Origin: a virus
DNA: 34,666 bases
Strand: one strand, 5' to 3'
Virus record (IMG/VR): IMGVR_UViG_3300035698_015069
Location: 1 to 34,666 of that record
Positions 24,654-30,089 of this stretch are shown piece by piece. How positions within the stretch are numbered: position 1 is the first letter of the stretch; each line of letters opens with the position of its first letter. Under the pieces are notes generated by a model that ran no database searches, had not been told where the DNA came from, and was given only the letters and a program-made list of their open reading frames with translations. The position numbers and the translations under genes were made by a program.

Positions 24654-24673
24654 GTATTTAAATAATATTTATT
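24654..24673 (-). promoter_or_regulatory. Shared promoter element, copy B
   Basis: Same 20-base element as copies A and C, overlapping the portal stop codon. The TATA-like centre is ~27 bases before the protease ATG, the archaeal TATA-to-start distance, so the transcript probably begins at the start codon. It would drive protease, capsid and decoration genes. Confidence 0.65.
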
Positions 24674-26909
24674 CAGGCACGAATTTGATAGTGCTTCTGC
24701 AATTAGGAAGCGCAGGAGGATGATCATATTTTTTACCTGTTAGAGGATCAACAAAGTATTCGTAAAGCCCGACTTTTTGTCCGTCCAATCTCCTGCACGG
24801 GTCCGAAGTTACTCCATCAAGATGAGAAATCCACTCTTTCTTTCCGTCTAACTTACTTTCTTTGTATGCTTCGAGCTTACCTGAATTCTGAAACCGATTA
24901 CTTTCGCTTCTCGCTATTTTCATGCTTCGGCCTTCAGTCACTTTACCGTTGACCTTGCCACCAGAATACTGTGTCATCTTGTCTTTAATATCAGTACTTA
25001 ATTCACTCATGCTTTTCCTGTCAGCTATTCCGTCGCGCACTATTCCGCTGATATCATCTTGCACGTCATTGGCCACGCCTTTGATACCTTCCCATCTGAT
25101 TCCGTCTTCAAGAGTGAACCCGTCTAATTGTCTTCTGGTCATATTATCTATTTTGTCGTCGAAGTTAGGATTAAGGTCTATGTTGATTTCTAGTTCTTCC
25201 TCTGCTTCTTCCCAGCCATCCATTACCTTAATCTTAACTATTCGCTTTATAGCTTCATAAAATCCTGCAGTGTTCACGACATTAAACATCCTACTAAAAA
25301 ACTCTCCTAGTGTCTTTTCAGTCGCTGGCACTTCATCTTTAAGAGTTTGCTCAGCATACTTGAGAATTTCTTTTTCCCAGTGCTCGAACACTTTTGTTAA
25401 GAAAACGTCATACTCTTTAGCATCACTTTTGAAAATAGGATCAGGAGCGCTCTTATAACTTTTTTGTGTGTCATCTGAAATTTCTGTTTCTTGTTTTTTC
25501 TTGAGAGGCATGGCAAGTCTCAGCACGGTATTCTTAAAATCATTTATTGGATCAGGACTGTCGTATGTTTCCCCGAATTCTTTTTTGTCTTTATCTTTGT
25601 CGTCGTCTTTCTTATCAGGTTTATCACCAGGCTTGAGTTCGTTTCCTTGGTCAATCCGGTCAGCCATCCTGTCCTGCATAGTAAGACTCATAGGCTGATC
25701 TCCCCACTCAACAGGATCTTTCCCTTCCATTTTAAGAACTTGATTAATAGTATACACGTTACGATCTAACTTGTTCATGGTCTGTTCATGCGCTAATTTC
25801 AGAGCCGTATCGTCAGTAATATTAAACTTAAACTTAATATTATCATGACCTACAAGCTCAGGAATGATTTCCCGATTTATTTTCTGAGCTATTCCTCTAT
25901 TAAGCAACGGCTTAAGAGCGTTTCTTAAAGTAGTTCGTTCTTGTCCTTCTTGAGTGTCTGTGTTGCTGTTCTCATAAAAACCTACTTCTTGCGGGCTGAA
26001 ACCAAACACACCAAACACTTGATGGAAATACCATCTTTGCCCTTCTAACCATTCCATATCCCGATTGTTCTGACTAAGAATTTTTACGTCAACACCTGGA
26101 GTATTATGAAACATAAGCCGATGAGGTTTCCCTCTTTGTTTTTGTTGCCACTCAGCACGATACCTACTCATCTGATCTTTTTCCATCGGCACAGTAACAA
26201 TTGCTTGAGGCACCGCATTATTAATAAAAAAGTCTTTGTTGTACCTATTGCTTTGAATCATGATCTCTACTTCTTGCTGGATGCTTTGCATCGGACTCCA
26301 ACCATAAGGAAAAGTTTCTGTTGTTCTCTTCATCTGACCATATATTATGTCTTCTTTCGCAAAGAATTTAGGCATGCTAGCAGGATACTTGTAACTGTAC
26401 TGAAAATATCCTTCTATCAAAGCGTTTTCTGTGAGCTTGATCATAAACCTGCTTCCATCATAAACAAATAATTGGACGAGTTCACCGAACGCATTTCTTC
26501 CTTTGAATATGCTTCCTGCATCTACTTCAATCAAGTCTACGAGGTATGGCCCCCACACGTCCCAGAACCCATCTCCGTTCTGGTTCGGGTACTCAAGAAG
26601 TTGTCTTACTTTTTCTTTGTCCTCATCGTAGTTAGTCTCGTCATCATCGTTAGAATTAATTATGTCCCAGTCTATTGCTGATGCTTGTTTCAGAATAGCA
26701 TTTTCTATCATTTGAACCCAGCCACTTTTCGCGTAGGATCTTAATTCTGTGACGTTTACGTTTCTAGGAGTTCCTAGTTGTGACGTCCAGAACCAGTTCG
26801 GCAGTAATGGCATTGATTCGGGATCGACTGCAGTGTCGGTTCCAAATGCTCTTACTTCTTTAACGCTTACTGGTGCAAGAAGTGTGTTTAGTCCTTTTAT
26901 GATTCCCAT
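24669..26909 (-). CDS. Portal protein fused to MuF-type head morphogenesis domain
   Basis: 746 residues. The first ~440 residues are portal-like: WVQMIENAILKQASAIDW, EDIIYGQMKRTTETFPYGWSPMQ, QNNRDMEWLEG and GFSPQEVGFYE are hallmarks. A Lys/Asp-rich linker (~430-470) leads to a helical part and a MuF-type domain (~595-746) with ARSESNRFQNSGKLEAY, DPCRRLDGQ and HPPALPNCRS. Most viruses encode these as two genes. The start follows a palindromic leader. Its stop codon overlaps the promoter of the protease gene. Confidence 0.8.
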   Translation of the reverse strand: MGIIKGLNTLLAPVSVKEVRAFGTDTAVDPESMPLLPNWFWTSQLGTPRNVNVTELRSYAKSGWVQMIENAILKQASAIDWDIINSNDDDETNYDEDKEKVRQLLEYPNQNGDGFWDVWGPYLVDLIEVDAGSIFKGRNAFGELVQLFVYDGSRFMIKLTENALIEGYFQYSYKYPASMPKFFAKEDIIYGQMKRTTETFPYGWSPMQSIQQEVEIMIQSNRYNKDFFINNAVPQAIVTVPMEKDQMSRYRAEWQQKQRGKPHRLMFHNTPGVDVKILSQNNRDMEWLEGQRWYFHQVFGVFGFSPQEVGFYENSNTDTQEGQERTTLRNALKPLLNRGIAQKINREIIPELVGHDNIKFKFNITDDTALKLAHEQTMNKLDRNVYTINQVLKMEGKDPVEWGDQPMSLTMQDRMADRIDQGNELKPGDKPDKKDDDKDKDKKEFGETYDSPDPINDFKNTVLRLAMPLKKKQETEISDDTQKSYKSAPDPIFKSDAKEYDVFLTKVFEHWEKEILKYAEQTLKDEVPATEKTLGEFFSRMFNVVNTAGFYEAIKRIVKIKVMDGWEEAEEELEINIDLNPNFDDKIDNMTRRQLDGFTLEDGIRWEGIKGVANDVQDDISGIVRDGIADRKSMSELSTDIKDKMTQYSGGKVNGKVTEGRSMKIARSESNRFQNSGKLEAYKESKLDGKKEWISHLDGVTSDPCRRLDGQKVGLYEYFVDPLTGKKYDHPPALPNCRSTIKFVPE

Positions 26910-26974: not shown

Positions 26975-26994
26975 GTATTTAAATAATATTTATT
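26975..26994 (-). promoter_or_regulatory. Shared promoter element, copy C
   Basis: Same 20-base element, overlapping the stop codon of the C5 methyltransferase frame. The portal ATG is 66 bases away, so unlike copies A and B it predicts a ~45-base leader, which contains two palindromes but no clear ribosome site. Confidence 0.6.
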
Positions 26995-27499
26995 TTAAGC
27001 GTTTGATTGCTAGTCTTGCTATGAGTTCTGCTACTTGTGGGACGACTGCGTTTCCAAGGCATTTAATTCTGTCCATCCTATTGGGAATCCCATTCCGTAT
27101 CGTACCCGATCTCGGCCAAGCTTCCAAGTACGGTATCCAATCCCCTGTTTCTGAGCGCAGCCACGTTTTCCAAGACTGCGAGCTCTGGTCGTACCAAGCG
27201 AATGGTTTCAAGCATTTTAAAGAACAGTCCGCTTCGTTCTCCAGTAATGCCTTTTCTTTTTCCAGCATTCGAAATGTCTTGACAGGGGAAACCACCTGTG
27301 ATAACGCTGCATTCAATTGCTCTATGTCCGTCCATTGTTCAGCCCTCCGAAAATGTTTTCTTAATATCTTTCTAGCATACGAGTCCTTTTCGCACACTAC
27401 TTCTGTCTTGAAATGTTTTGTTCTTTCAAAACCTAGTTCGATGCCGCCTATTCCAGAAAACAGGCTGAGTACTTTACGTTTTTTTATCCGAAGAACCAT
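26990..27499 (-). CDS. C5-cytosine DNA methyltransferase, outer frame (motif I and C-terminal motif)
   Basis: 169 residues. The N-terminus has motif I (VLSLFSGIGGIELGFE) and the expected EKDSYARKILRKHF segment. The C-terminus has the final motif, RIKCLGNAVVPQVAELIARL. The frame is open throughout but lacks the PCQ and ENV motifs, which lie in a nested frame. GAGG lies upstream. It overlaps the end of the large terminase gene by 16 bases. Either two compensating indels have broken one gene, or the enzyme is made of two overlapping chains, as in M.EcoHK31I. Full C5 enzymes are usually 300 residues or more, so the target-recognition region also appears deleted. Confidence 0.65.
   Translation of the reverse strand: MVLRIKKRKVLSLFSGIGGIELGFERTKHFKTEVVCEKDSYARKILRKHFRRAEQWTDIEQLNAALSQVVSPVKTFRMLEKEKALLENEADCSLKCLKPFAWYDQSSQSWKTWLRSETGDWIPYLEAWPRSGTIRNGIPNRMDRIKCLGNAVVPQVAELIARLAIKRLK
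27078..27335 (-). CDS. C5-cytosine methyltransferase core in a nested frame
   Basis: 85 residues in the -1 frame within the previous gene. It carries catalytic motif IV (VITGGFPCQDISNAGKRKG), GERSGLFFKMLETIRLVRPE, and motif VI (LAVLENVAALRNRG), then GSLAEIGYDTEW. An ATG with GGAGGG at 7 bases starts it, and an in-frame TGA lies two codons upstream, so it could be translated alone. It needs motif I and the C-terminal part from the outer frame for activity. Whether it is a true second subunit or a frameshift remnant is undecided. Confidence 0.6.
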   Translation of the reverse strand: MDGHRAIECSVITGGFPCQDISNAGKRKGITGERSGLFFKMLETIRLVRPELAVLENVAALRNRGLDTVLGSLAEIGYDTEWDSQ

Positions 27500-28920
27500 G
27501 CTGCCTCGTTATTCACTTCCCAAGTAAAATAATTAAGCGCATCAGCAAAATCAGGACTCTTATCAGGATCTATAATCTTCCATTTACTATTCATCACATT
27601 CTTGTCTTTCTTCATGCTAAGCAACTCACTCTTAAGTTTTTTGTGATTAGGAATATCAATCATTCCAGTTCTCATTAACTCTGCATTCCTAAAAAACTGT
27701 TCTGCTTTACGATTAGCAAACCTGTTCTTGCTACTAGTCGGCAAGTTATCTGTGTATTTGCTAATACCTTTTGCGCCTTCTCCATAAAGACATGTTATTA
27801 TCACAACTCTAGGGTTTCCAGCGAACACTTGTCTCAAACGACTTATGATCCCGCTTCCGCCGCCGCCGCCGCCGCCGTCTACTTTAAGGAATATTCTTCC
27901 AGAAGGAGTAAGATCAGGCTCTGCTTTTAACGCTCGCTGAACTAAATTATCTGCCACATCCATCGGATCACTTTTAGGCTCAAAATAAATATCGTTTACC
28001 AACCAGCCTTCCTCATCAGTAAAACCTTGCATTATAACCGTCAAGTCTCTACCTTGTTCTGCAGGATCACAACTGATTACAACATCACGCACTGGATTAA
28101 GCTTATTTTCTATCGCTCCCTGGATCCAGGCATAACTGTACAAACTATCTTCTGCTTCTAAAGGAAACTCGCTTCGGTACAACACAGTAAAATCTAAACT
28201 ATCTTCTCCTCCTAATTCTTCTCTCATCTCGTCTATAAAAGCATTTGTTGTTCTGCCTTCTTGAATAGCTGTTTTGTACCCTACATGTATCGTAATAAAC
28301 CTGCCGCTCACGTAATGCTCGTAGTACTTACAGTCCATAGTCCACGGATTACTAAGTTCGATTAAAATAGCGTTTTCAGGATCATCTCCAAGCATCCTCA
28401 TGATTTTCGCGTAAGCTTCCTTGCTAATAAGTGCTGCCTCGTCTATAATAATCAGGTCAGCTCCGAACCCCATAAGTCTGTTTGCTTCACCATGCGCGCT
28501 AACAGTTCTTAATTCACAACCGTTCTTAAACGTCCATCTTTTACGCGATGTTTCTCTTTTCAGTCGTTCTATACCCTGAGTCATGTCTAACTCAACAAGC
28601 TCCGCAAGCACCGGACACATAATAAGAATTTCAGCAATATAATTTCTTATGATACTAGACTGATCACCAGTCGGAGCAATAATAGCTATTTTTTTCTTTT
28701 CATGAAATAAAATGTACAACGCAACTCCCATCGCAACACACGCACTTTTCCCCCATCTCGTCATAGCGTTAATACAAGCTCTGGGGTGTTCAGCATATGC
28801 TATCAGTCGAACTATTCTTTCCTGGGTCTTCGTAAGATGTTGTGCTGCAGGATACTCTGGAAAGTAATACTTACAAATAACTCGAATATTCTTAGTCTGC
28901 ACATAATGATCAATATTCAT
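27484..28920 (-). CDS. terL: Terminase large subunit
   Basis: 478 residues from the ATG that overlaps the methyltransferase stop as ATGA. ATPase: a Walker A-like MTRWGKSA (~53-60), Walker B DLIIIDEA (~155-162), coupling segment IELSNPW (~188). Nuclease: DPAEQGRDLTVI (Asp ~285), KVDGGGGGGGSG (Asp ~348) and SPDFADAL (Asp ~460). It packages DNA through the portal. A run of seven GGC codons encodes the glycine loop after Asp348, striking in this AT-rich genome. Longer in-frame starts lie inside the upstream gene. Confidence 0.9.
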   Translation of the reverse strand: MNIDHYVQTKNIRVICKYYFPEYPAAQHLTKTQERIVRLIAYAEHPRACINAMTRWGKSACVAMGVALYILFHEKKKIAIIAPTGDQSSIIRNYIAEILIMCPVLAELVELDMTQGIERLKRETSRKRWTFKNGCELRTVSAHGEANRLMGFGADLIIIDEAALISKEAYAKIMRMLGDDPENAILIELSNPWTMDCKYYEHYVSGRFITIHVGYKTAIQEGRTTNAFIDEMREELGGEDSLDFTVLYRSEFPLEAEDSLYSYAWIQGAIENKLNPVRDVVISCDPAEQGRDLTVIMQGFTDEEGWLVNDIYFEPKSDPMDVADNLVQRALKAEPDLTPSGRIFLKVDGGGGGGGSGIISRLRQVFAGNPRVVIITCLYGEGAKGISKYTDNLPTSSKNRFANRKAEQFFRNAELMRTGMIDIPNHKKLKSELLSMKKDKNVMNSKWKIIDPDKSPDFADALNYFTWEVNNEAAWFFG

Positions 28921-30089
28921 GCAGCCTTCTTGGCTGTTTGTCCTGCGTATTTTTCCCACCTGTTTATAATAATCTGACAATAAACAGGATCTAATTCCAT
29001 CATGAAACATTTCCTGCCAAGTTGTTCACAAGCAATCAAAGTACTACCTGATCCTCCAAACAAATCAAGAACCGTATCATCTTTTTTAGAACTATCTTCC
29101 ACAGCTTGAAAGCATAACTTAACAGGCTTCATAGTAGGATGTTCTACATTAGATTCTCTTGGAATGTTCCACACATCTCCTCTCAATGTTTTTTCTCCTC
29201 CGAATTCACCAAAGTAAATCATGAATTCGTGCTGTTTGAAATACTTATCAAGATTCTGAACTCCTCGATCCTTATCCCACACTATACATGCTTTAGGAGT
29301 GAACCCTTTTTCGACTAGTGCATTAAAGAAATCATTGTAGGACTTCCAATTGCAACATACATATCCGCGTTTGGTATCTAATTGCGAGAATGCTTTTCCT
29401 AAGAAAATCTTAAAATCTTTGATGTTATCGTTTTTTATTGGTTTATGTGTGCCTTTCATATCTTTATAGTTTATGTTATACGGAGGCTCTGTGAATAACA
29501 TATCCGCTTTTTTTCCGTTCATAAGTTGTTTGACATGTATTCTGTCTGTGGCGTCTCCGCACATTAGACTGTGGTTTCCCAGCACGTACACGTCACCTAC
29601 TTTAATTTTAGTTAAGCTTTTGACACGCTCATACGCACCAACAGTAATAATTTCCTCTTCTTCTTTAGGAGGATCAATATTTTTAACAAGCAAATCTTCG
29701 TAATCAACAGCTTGCGGGAGTAGTTCTTTGAATGTTTCGAACCCTCCTGCTTCCATTATAGCTTCGAATTCTGAAATGTCTTTTTTCTCGTCGTGTTCTC
29801 CTCGTAGTTTGTTCATTACTTGTCTTAGGATCCGCCTGTCTACTTCTTCTAACGGAAGTCTTAGTACAGGGACGTTTCCCATGCCTAACTCTCTAGCGGC
29901 TAATAACCTGTGATACCCGTCTGCAACTACTAAGTCTTTGTTTGTTATGATAGGAACTAAAAACCCGTACTTACTTATGTTCTTTTTCAGGCTTTCCATG
30001 CTTTCAGCACTCATGACATTCGGATTGTTCTCGTCATGTATGATACTTCCTGTACTAATCATTTCTTGTTTTGGAATCTTTATTGTCAT
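28917..30089 (-). CDS. ParB-domain DNA methyltransferase (beta-class N4/N6)
   Basis: 390 residues. Residues ~5-95 are a ParB-like N-terminal domain (ISKYGFLVPIITN, VVADGYHRLLAARELG). After a linker, the methyltransferase begins: motif IV at ~198-205, MLFTEPPYNI, and the AdoMet motif DLFGGSGSTLIACEQLGRKC (~342-361), in the order of beta-class enzymes. The usual D of DPPY is E here. Many phages have such fusions; they methylate phage DNA, typically against restriction. AGGAGG precedes the start. It is coupled to the terminase gene. Confidence 0.85.
   Translation of the reverse strand: MTIKIPKQEMISTGSIIHDENNPNVMSAESMESLKKNISKYGFLVPIITNKDLVVADGYHRLLAARELGMGNVPVLRLPLEEVDRRILRQVMNKLRGEHDEKKDISEFEAIMEAGGFETFKELLPQAVDYEDLLVKNIDPPKEEEEIITVGAYERVKSLTKIKVGDVYVLGNHSLMCGDATDRIHVKQLMNGKKADMLFTEPPYNINYKDMKGTHKPIKNDNIKDFKIFLGKAFSQLDTKRGYVCCNWKSYNDFFNALVEKGFTPKACIVWDKDRGVQNLDKYFKQHEFMIYFGEFGGEKTLRGDVWNIPRESNVEHPTMKPVKLCFQAVEDSSKKDDTVLDLFGGSGSTLIACEQLGRKCFMMELDPVYCQIIINRWEKYAGQTAKKAA

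Follow-up and report, generated by a model that had tools for sequence, protein, structure and literature searches.

A viral C5-cytosine methyltransferase gene that is probably the recently truncated remnant of a dual-coded, rearranged enzyme of the M.EcoHK31I kind

To our knowledge, enzymes are rarely dual-coded over a long same-strand stretch with constraint on both frames, and this has usually been shown for single cases. In the C5-cytosine methyltransferase M.EcoHK31I (YGGCCR) the gene of the small chain overlaps the large one in another frame. The large chain contains motifs I-VIII and X and the small chain contains motif IX; M.AquI is a further C5 enzyme made of two chains (PMC3404938). 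A nested pair is also found in the Paenibacillus phage Tadhana, where TADHANA_54 (571-1641 of our locus L191) encloses TADHANA_55 (773-1477, +1 frame), each of them being annotated as a DNA-cytosine methyltransferase.

The gene studied here belongs to the virus record IMGVR_UViG_3300035698_015069, whose positions 1 to 34,666 form the window, i.e. the whole stretch of 34,666 nt that was analysed. Throughout, alpha stands for the first (catalytic) frame and beta for the +1 frame. The parts of the gene are:

26990..27499, minus strand: outer ORF of 169 aa with motifs I-III, then the N-terminal part of a beta-type (second-frame) chain, then motif X as placed by the presumed deletion
27425..27472, minus strand: motif I region VLSLFSGIGGIELGFE in the outer frame, PF00145 profile 2-55
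27343..27348, minus strand: GGAGGG, SD-like, 7 nt 5' of the inner ATG
27078..27335, minus strand: inner nested ORF of 85 aa with motifs IV-VII (GGFPCQ, ENV), PF00145 profile 61-140, PHROG_363
27279..27296, minus strand: motif IV GGFPCQ in the inner frame
27162..27170, minus strand: motif VI ENV in the inner frame
27089..27304, minus strand: beta-frame segment (SPVKTF...WPRSGTIRNG) with homology to PHROG_1008, its reading conserved at the same place in relatives
27086..27093, minus strand: presumed deletion junction ATGGGATT, where GAATGG, from the 'EW' codons in the core, meets ATGGG, from the 'MGFP' codons in motif IX
26993..27091, minus strand: motif X region GIPNRMDRIKCLGNAVVPQVAELIARLAIKRLK, in the outer frame after the presumed deletion

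The initial annotation had described a nested two-frame C5 gene with its own internal start, in which motif I and the C-terminal motif share one frame, open throughout, while PCQ and ENV are read in the -1 frame, and this description holds in all parts. Residues 9-64 of the outer ORF match the PF00145 profile at 2-55 (E 1e-10) and the inner ORF, whose frame is -1 relative to the outer one, matches the same profile at 61-140 (E 5e-19); thus two consecutive parts of one domain are encoded in two frames. Motif I (FxGxG) and the SAM-binding N-terminus are present in the outer ORF, motif IV PCQ and motif VI ENV in the inner ORF, and motif X (GNAVxP) appears as LGNAVVPQ in the outer frame. Motif VIII, the target recognition region (TRD) and motif IX are absent from the window gene, the sole remainder of motif IX being an MGFPIGW tail in the third frame.

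The reading of the outer frame over the core (…WPRSGTIRNGI) had been noticed for its resemblance to the recognition region of related phage enzymes, with the reservation that it could be chance. Outer ORF residues 55-137 match PHROG_1008 (E 6e-5), a viral family named 'DNA methyltransferase' which represents the second-frame chain of viral C5 enzymes, and this match, together with the depletion of stops in relatives, leads us to reject chance likeness in favour of true homology. In addition both ORFs match PHROG_363. In the window alone the +1 frame has no stop where 1.19 are expected (P 0.185, not significant); the significance of the open frame therefore comes from the relatives.

These relatives were fetched by a search with the core. 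They carry the ordinary enzyme motifs I, IV, VI, VIII and X in one frame, and their +1 frame is open from just before PCQ to beyond a motif ExxMGxPxxW, which is absent from their first frame and which, judged by its place and its residues, probably corresponds to motif IX. When the synonymous codons of the first frame were shuffled in 82 distinct related loci, 221.6±9.6 stops were expected in the +1 frame and only 47 are observed, a strong depletion, whereas the +2 control frame contains 552 stops against 565±17 expected. The commonest distance from the putative motif IX in the +1 frame to motif X is exactly 44 nt (37 loci), and most loci have a WPRSG-type motif at +166/169 of this frame; the motifs were scanned with regular expressions, which miss diverged members. 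Several diverged pairs vary at alpha third positions in their N region and at beta third positions in the TRD region. The stop depletion and this codon-position pattern indicate that the second frame is a real gene. The parallel to M.EcoHK31I drawn in the initial annotation is hereby strengthened, as the second frame is real in relatives and the motif IX candidate is located there. A group of six loci (L018, L019, L023, L029, L030, L034) shows another arrangement: the core ORF ends early, motif X is in the +1 frame and motif IX, where detected, shares this frame with X, a layout in which the motifs are divided in the manner of M.AquI and the overlap is long.

In the window motifs I-III are read in the beta frame, with the core nested inside. 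This layout, called type C here, is also present in L016/L017, L021, L110, L111, L112, L113 and L116, so that relatives with the same two-frame relation of N-terminus and core do exist. Among the loci in which motif I was found it lies in the core frame in 87, in the third frame in one, and in the beta frame in 8 (window included), the latter count being biased because the search with A1 favours loci with motif I and beta segments in one frame; the unbiased core search also recovered L016, L017 and L021. L016 and L017 come from two different metagenomes and are identical over the outer chain. L113 and L116, likewise from different metagenomes, are diverged and both keep the layout. Substitutions between these two are most frequent at beta third positions for the N region (33/60, 15/61, 10/61; P 1e-5) and for the TRD (P 7e-6), but the core has its maximum at alpha third positions (P 0.01). 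This pattern, seen in the one pair, shows constraint in both frames and purifying selection on the type-C layout.

Monophyly of the type-C loci is rejected in a tree of N plus core (AU p 1e-4), and its starred branches require at least three changes, the exact number of origins being uncertain because the tree had 130 columns only. The window is most similar to L016 among the type-C loci (65% over N plus core), which gives no supported grouping, and its N-terminal frame change may therefore be an event of its own. Recurrence and the selection in L113/L116 make the N-terminal 'frame break' a shared architecture and not necessarily decay. We lean slightly towards the view that viral C5 methyltransferases have repeatedly re-partitioned a dual-coded gene, such that one chain would carry the SAM-binding motifs I-III, DNA recognition and motif IX, and a nested, separately started chain the catalytic motifs and X, a natural split inside the Rossmann fold. 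The literature library that was searched, which includes few subscription papers, describes neither the type-C layout nor dual coding as a general property of viral C5 enzymes; the novelty of the layout is provisional.

The second break, at the C-terminus, is of a different nature. From PCQ to motif X the window has 238 nt and all other loci in which X was found have at least 417 nt; compared with L016 or L021 (447 nt each) 209 nt are missing. At ATGGGATT the conserved GAATGG of the core is joined to the conserved ATGGG of motif IX, i.e. about 200 nt are gone at an ATGG(GATT) microhomology with 4-8 nt shared at the junction. Microhomology of this length is typical of simple deletion. An assembly error by repeat collapse is unlikely because the shared junction sequence comprises only 4-8 nt, and from the sequence comparison we take the break to be a genuine deletion. 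The exact junction sequence had no match in viral_contigs. The lost stretch comprises motif VIII, the recognition region and the beginning of motif IX, all kept in complete relatives, and motif X is shifted into the outer frame, which for this reason still reads through to LGNAVVPQ.

The methyltransferase gene sits between the terminase and the portal genes, and the surrounding features are:

27484..29010, minus strand: terminase large subunit, whose end shares 16 nt with the start of the outer ORF
24669-26909: portal
28917-30089, minus strand: N6/N4 DNA methyltransferase (PF01555) fused to a ParB-like N-terminus (recognised by eye), upstream of the terminase

The virus retains an N6/N4 methyltransferase besides the probable C5 remnant. 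Sister viruses were obtained by a terminase search (L104) and a portal search (L105, L106); the phage collection yielded no terminase relative. Between terminase and portal L104 and L105 have no methyltransferase, and hence they are uninformative on decay and suggest that the window gene is probably an acquired extra gene. Two observations on the neighbouring genes may be added. A CCG-type repeat at 27858-27882 of the window encodes a run of seven glycines in the terminase (VDGGGGGGGSG), and the portal gene of L104 (6611-9799) contains an in-frame intein-like insert (CLDYGSLIETNEGL...NRMIVHNS) which the portals of the window and L105 lack.

Taken together, the window gene is in our judgement probably a recently truncated, inactive remnant of a dual-coded, rearranged C5-cytosine methyltransferase of the M.EcoHK31I kind. 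The outer, beta-frame chain of this ancestor would have contained motifs I-III, the recognition region and motif IX. Motif X and the catalytic motifs IV-VIII would have been on a second chain, which began at an internal SD and ATG and was nested in the -1 frame, both chains presumably assembling into one enzyme. Loss of about 200 nt between two sites that contain ATGG would then have taken out motif VIII, the recognition region and the greater part of motif IX and moved motif X to the outer frame. With VIII, TRD and IX deleted, the surviving peptides are most likely inactive. However, the surviving motifs are all intact and the outer ORF is open through X, which would also be expected if the short form were in use.

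Plain decay of a single-frame (type A) gene by two independent indels, of which one fell between motifs III and IV and the other caused the TRD loss, with an accidental inner start, would also account for two frame breaks within one gene, and it gains from the real TRD deletion and from a tree which does not place the window firmly among the other type-C loci. We regard it as unlikely, since seven other sequences, each open over long stretches in both phases, show the same relation of N and core frames, motif I is in the third frame nowhere except in the broken L141, and L113/L116 show selection on the layout. Moreover a strong SD stands at the expected distance from the inner ATG, which is rare at other ATGs: strong SD-like sequences precede 29 of the 742 ATGs on the minus strand of the window and 14 of the 29 likely gene starts that were checked. 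Of the decay by two deletions that the initial annotation gave as its alternative, the C-terminal deletion therefore stands and the N-terminal break does not necessarily belong to it.

As to expression, an in-frame TGA is located two codons upstream of the inner ATG and GGAGGG precedes it by 7 nt, both as first described. An internal ATG before the core is present in the window, L016, L110, L111, L112, L113 and L116, and in the window and L016 it stands just 5' of the core together with an SD-like sequence, from which we infer internal initiation as the main route to the core chain. The fact that the inner frame is -1 relative to the outer one in every type-C locus would equally suit programmed -1 frameshifting as the link between motifs I-III and the core, a possibility that concerns the expression route and not the decay of the window copy, and L021 indeed has no ATG, GTG or TTG between the upstream stop and PCQ. 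Still, frameshifting appears quite improbable: inspection by eye revealed no common slippery heptamer in the type-C junctions, no stable structure follows the window junction (z -0.04), and the SD-like sequences with ATG in the window and L016 speak for a start of translation.

A working minimal two-chain protein (outer I-III and X, inner IV-VII) serving as a module for SAM binding or methyl transfer that has no DNA recognition domain of its own would fit the intact motifs, the two open frames and the strong SD, but is very hard to credit because motif VIII, TRD and motif IX are absent, no other checked gene supplies them and no relative found has the short form (shortest PCQ-X 417 nt). The deletion likewise speaks against the earlier idea of a very compact split enzyme, as the window copy is not complete.

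The main interest is in the parent layout, a two-chain dual-coded enzyme whose partition is unlike that of M.EcoHK31I and has arisen repeatedly. The window is mainly a marker leading to this layout, and it illustrates how one small deletion can affect both chains together. Dual coding appears to be a general trait within a large group of viral C5 methyltransferases in which the motif partition between the chains changes repeatedly, and many natural pairs make split-enzyme assembly and overlapping-gene evolution testable.

The viral relatives have in common with M.EcoHK31I the two chains and the place of motif IX outside the catalytic chain; as in that enzyme, the second chain of the window lies in the +1 frame inside the catalytic gene (PHROG_1008 match). 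However, instead of one large chain with I-VIII and X, the window has I-III and X framed apart from IV-VI, with VIII missing, and motif IX of the small chain, found in most relatives, is deleted. In the window and the other type-C loci motifs I-III belong to the outer, beta-frame chain, and the window in addition lacks VIII, TRD and IX. The window ORFs match the viral families PHROG_363 and PHROG_1008, and the Tadhana pair is similar in being nested, but in Tadhana the whole smaller ORF lies inside a complete larger ORF, whereas the window pair is truncated and has motif I in the other frame. M.AquI, finally, separates motifs I-VIII from IX-X, while the window separates I-III from IV-VII.
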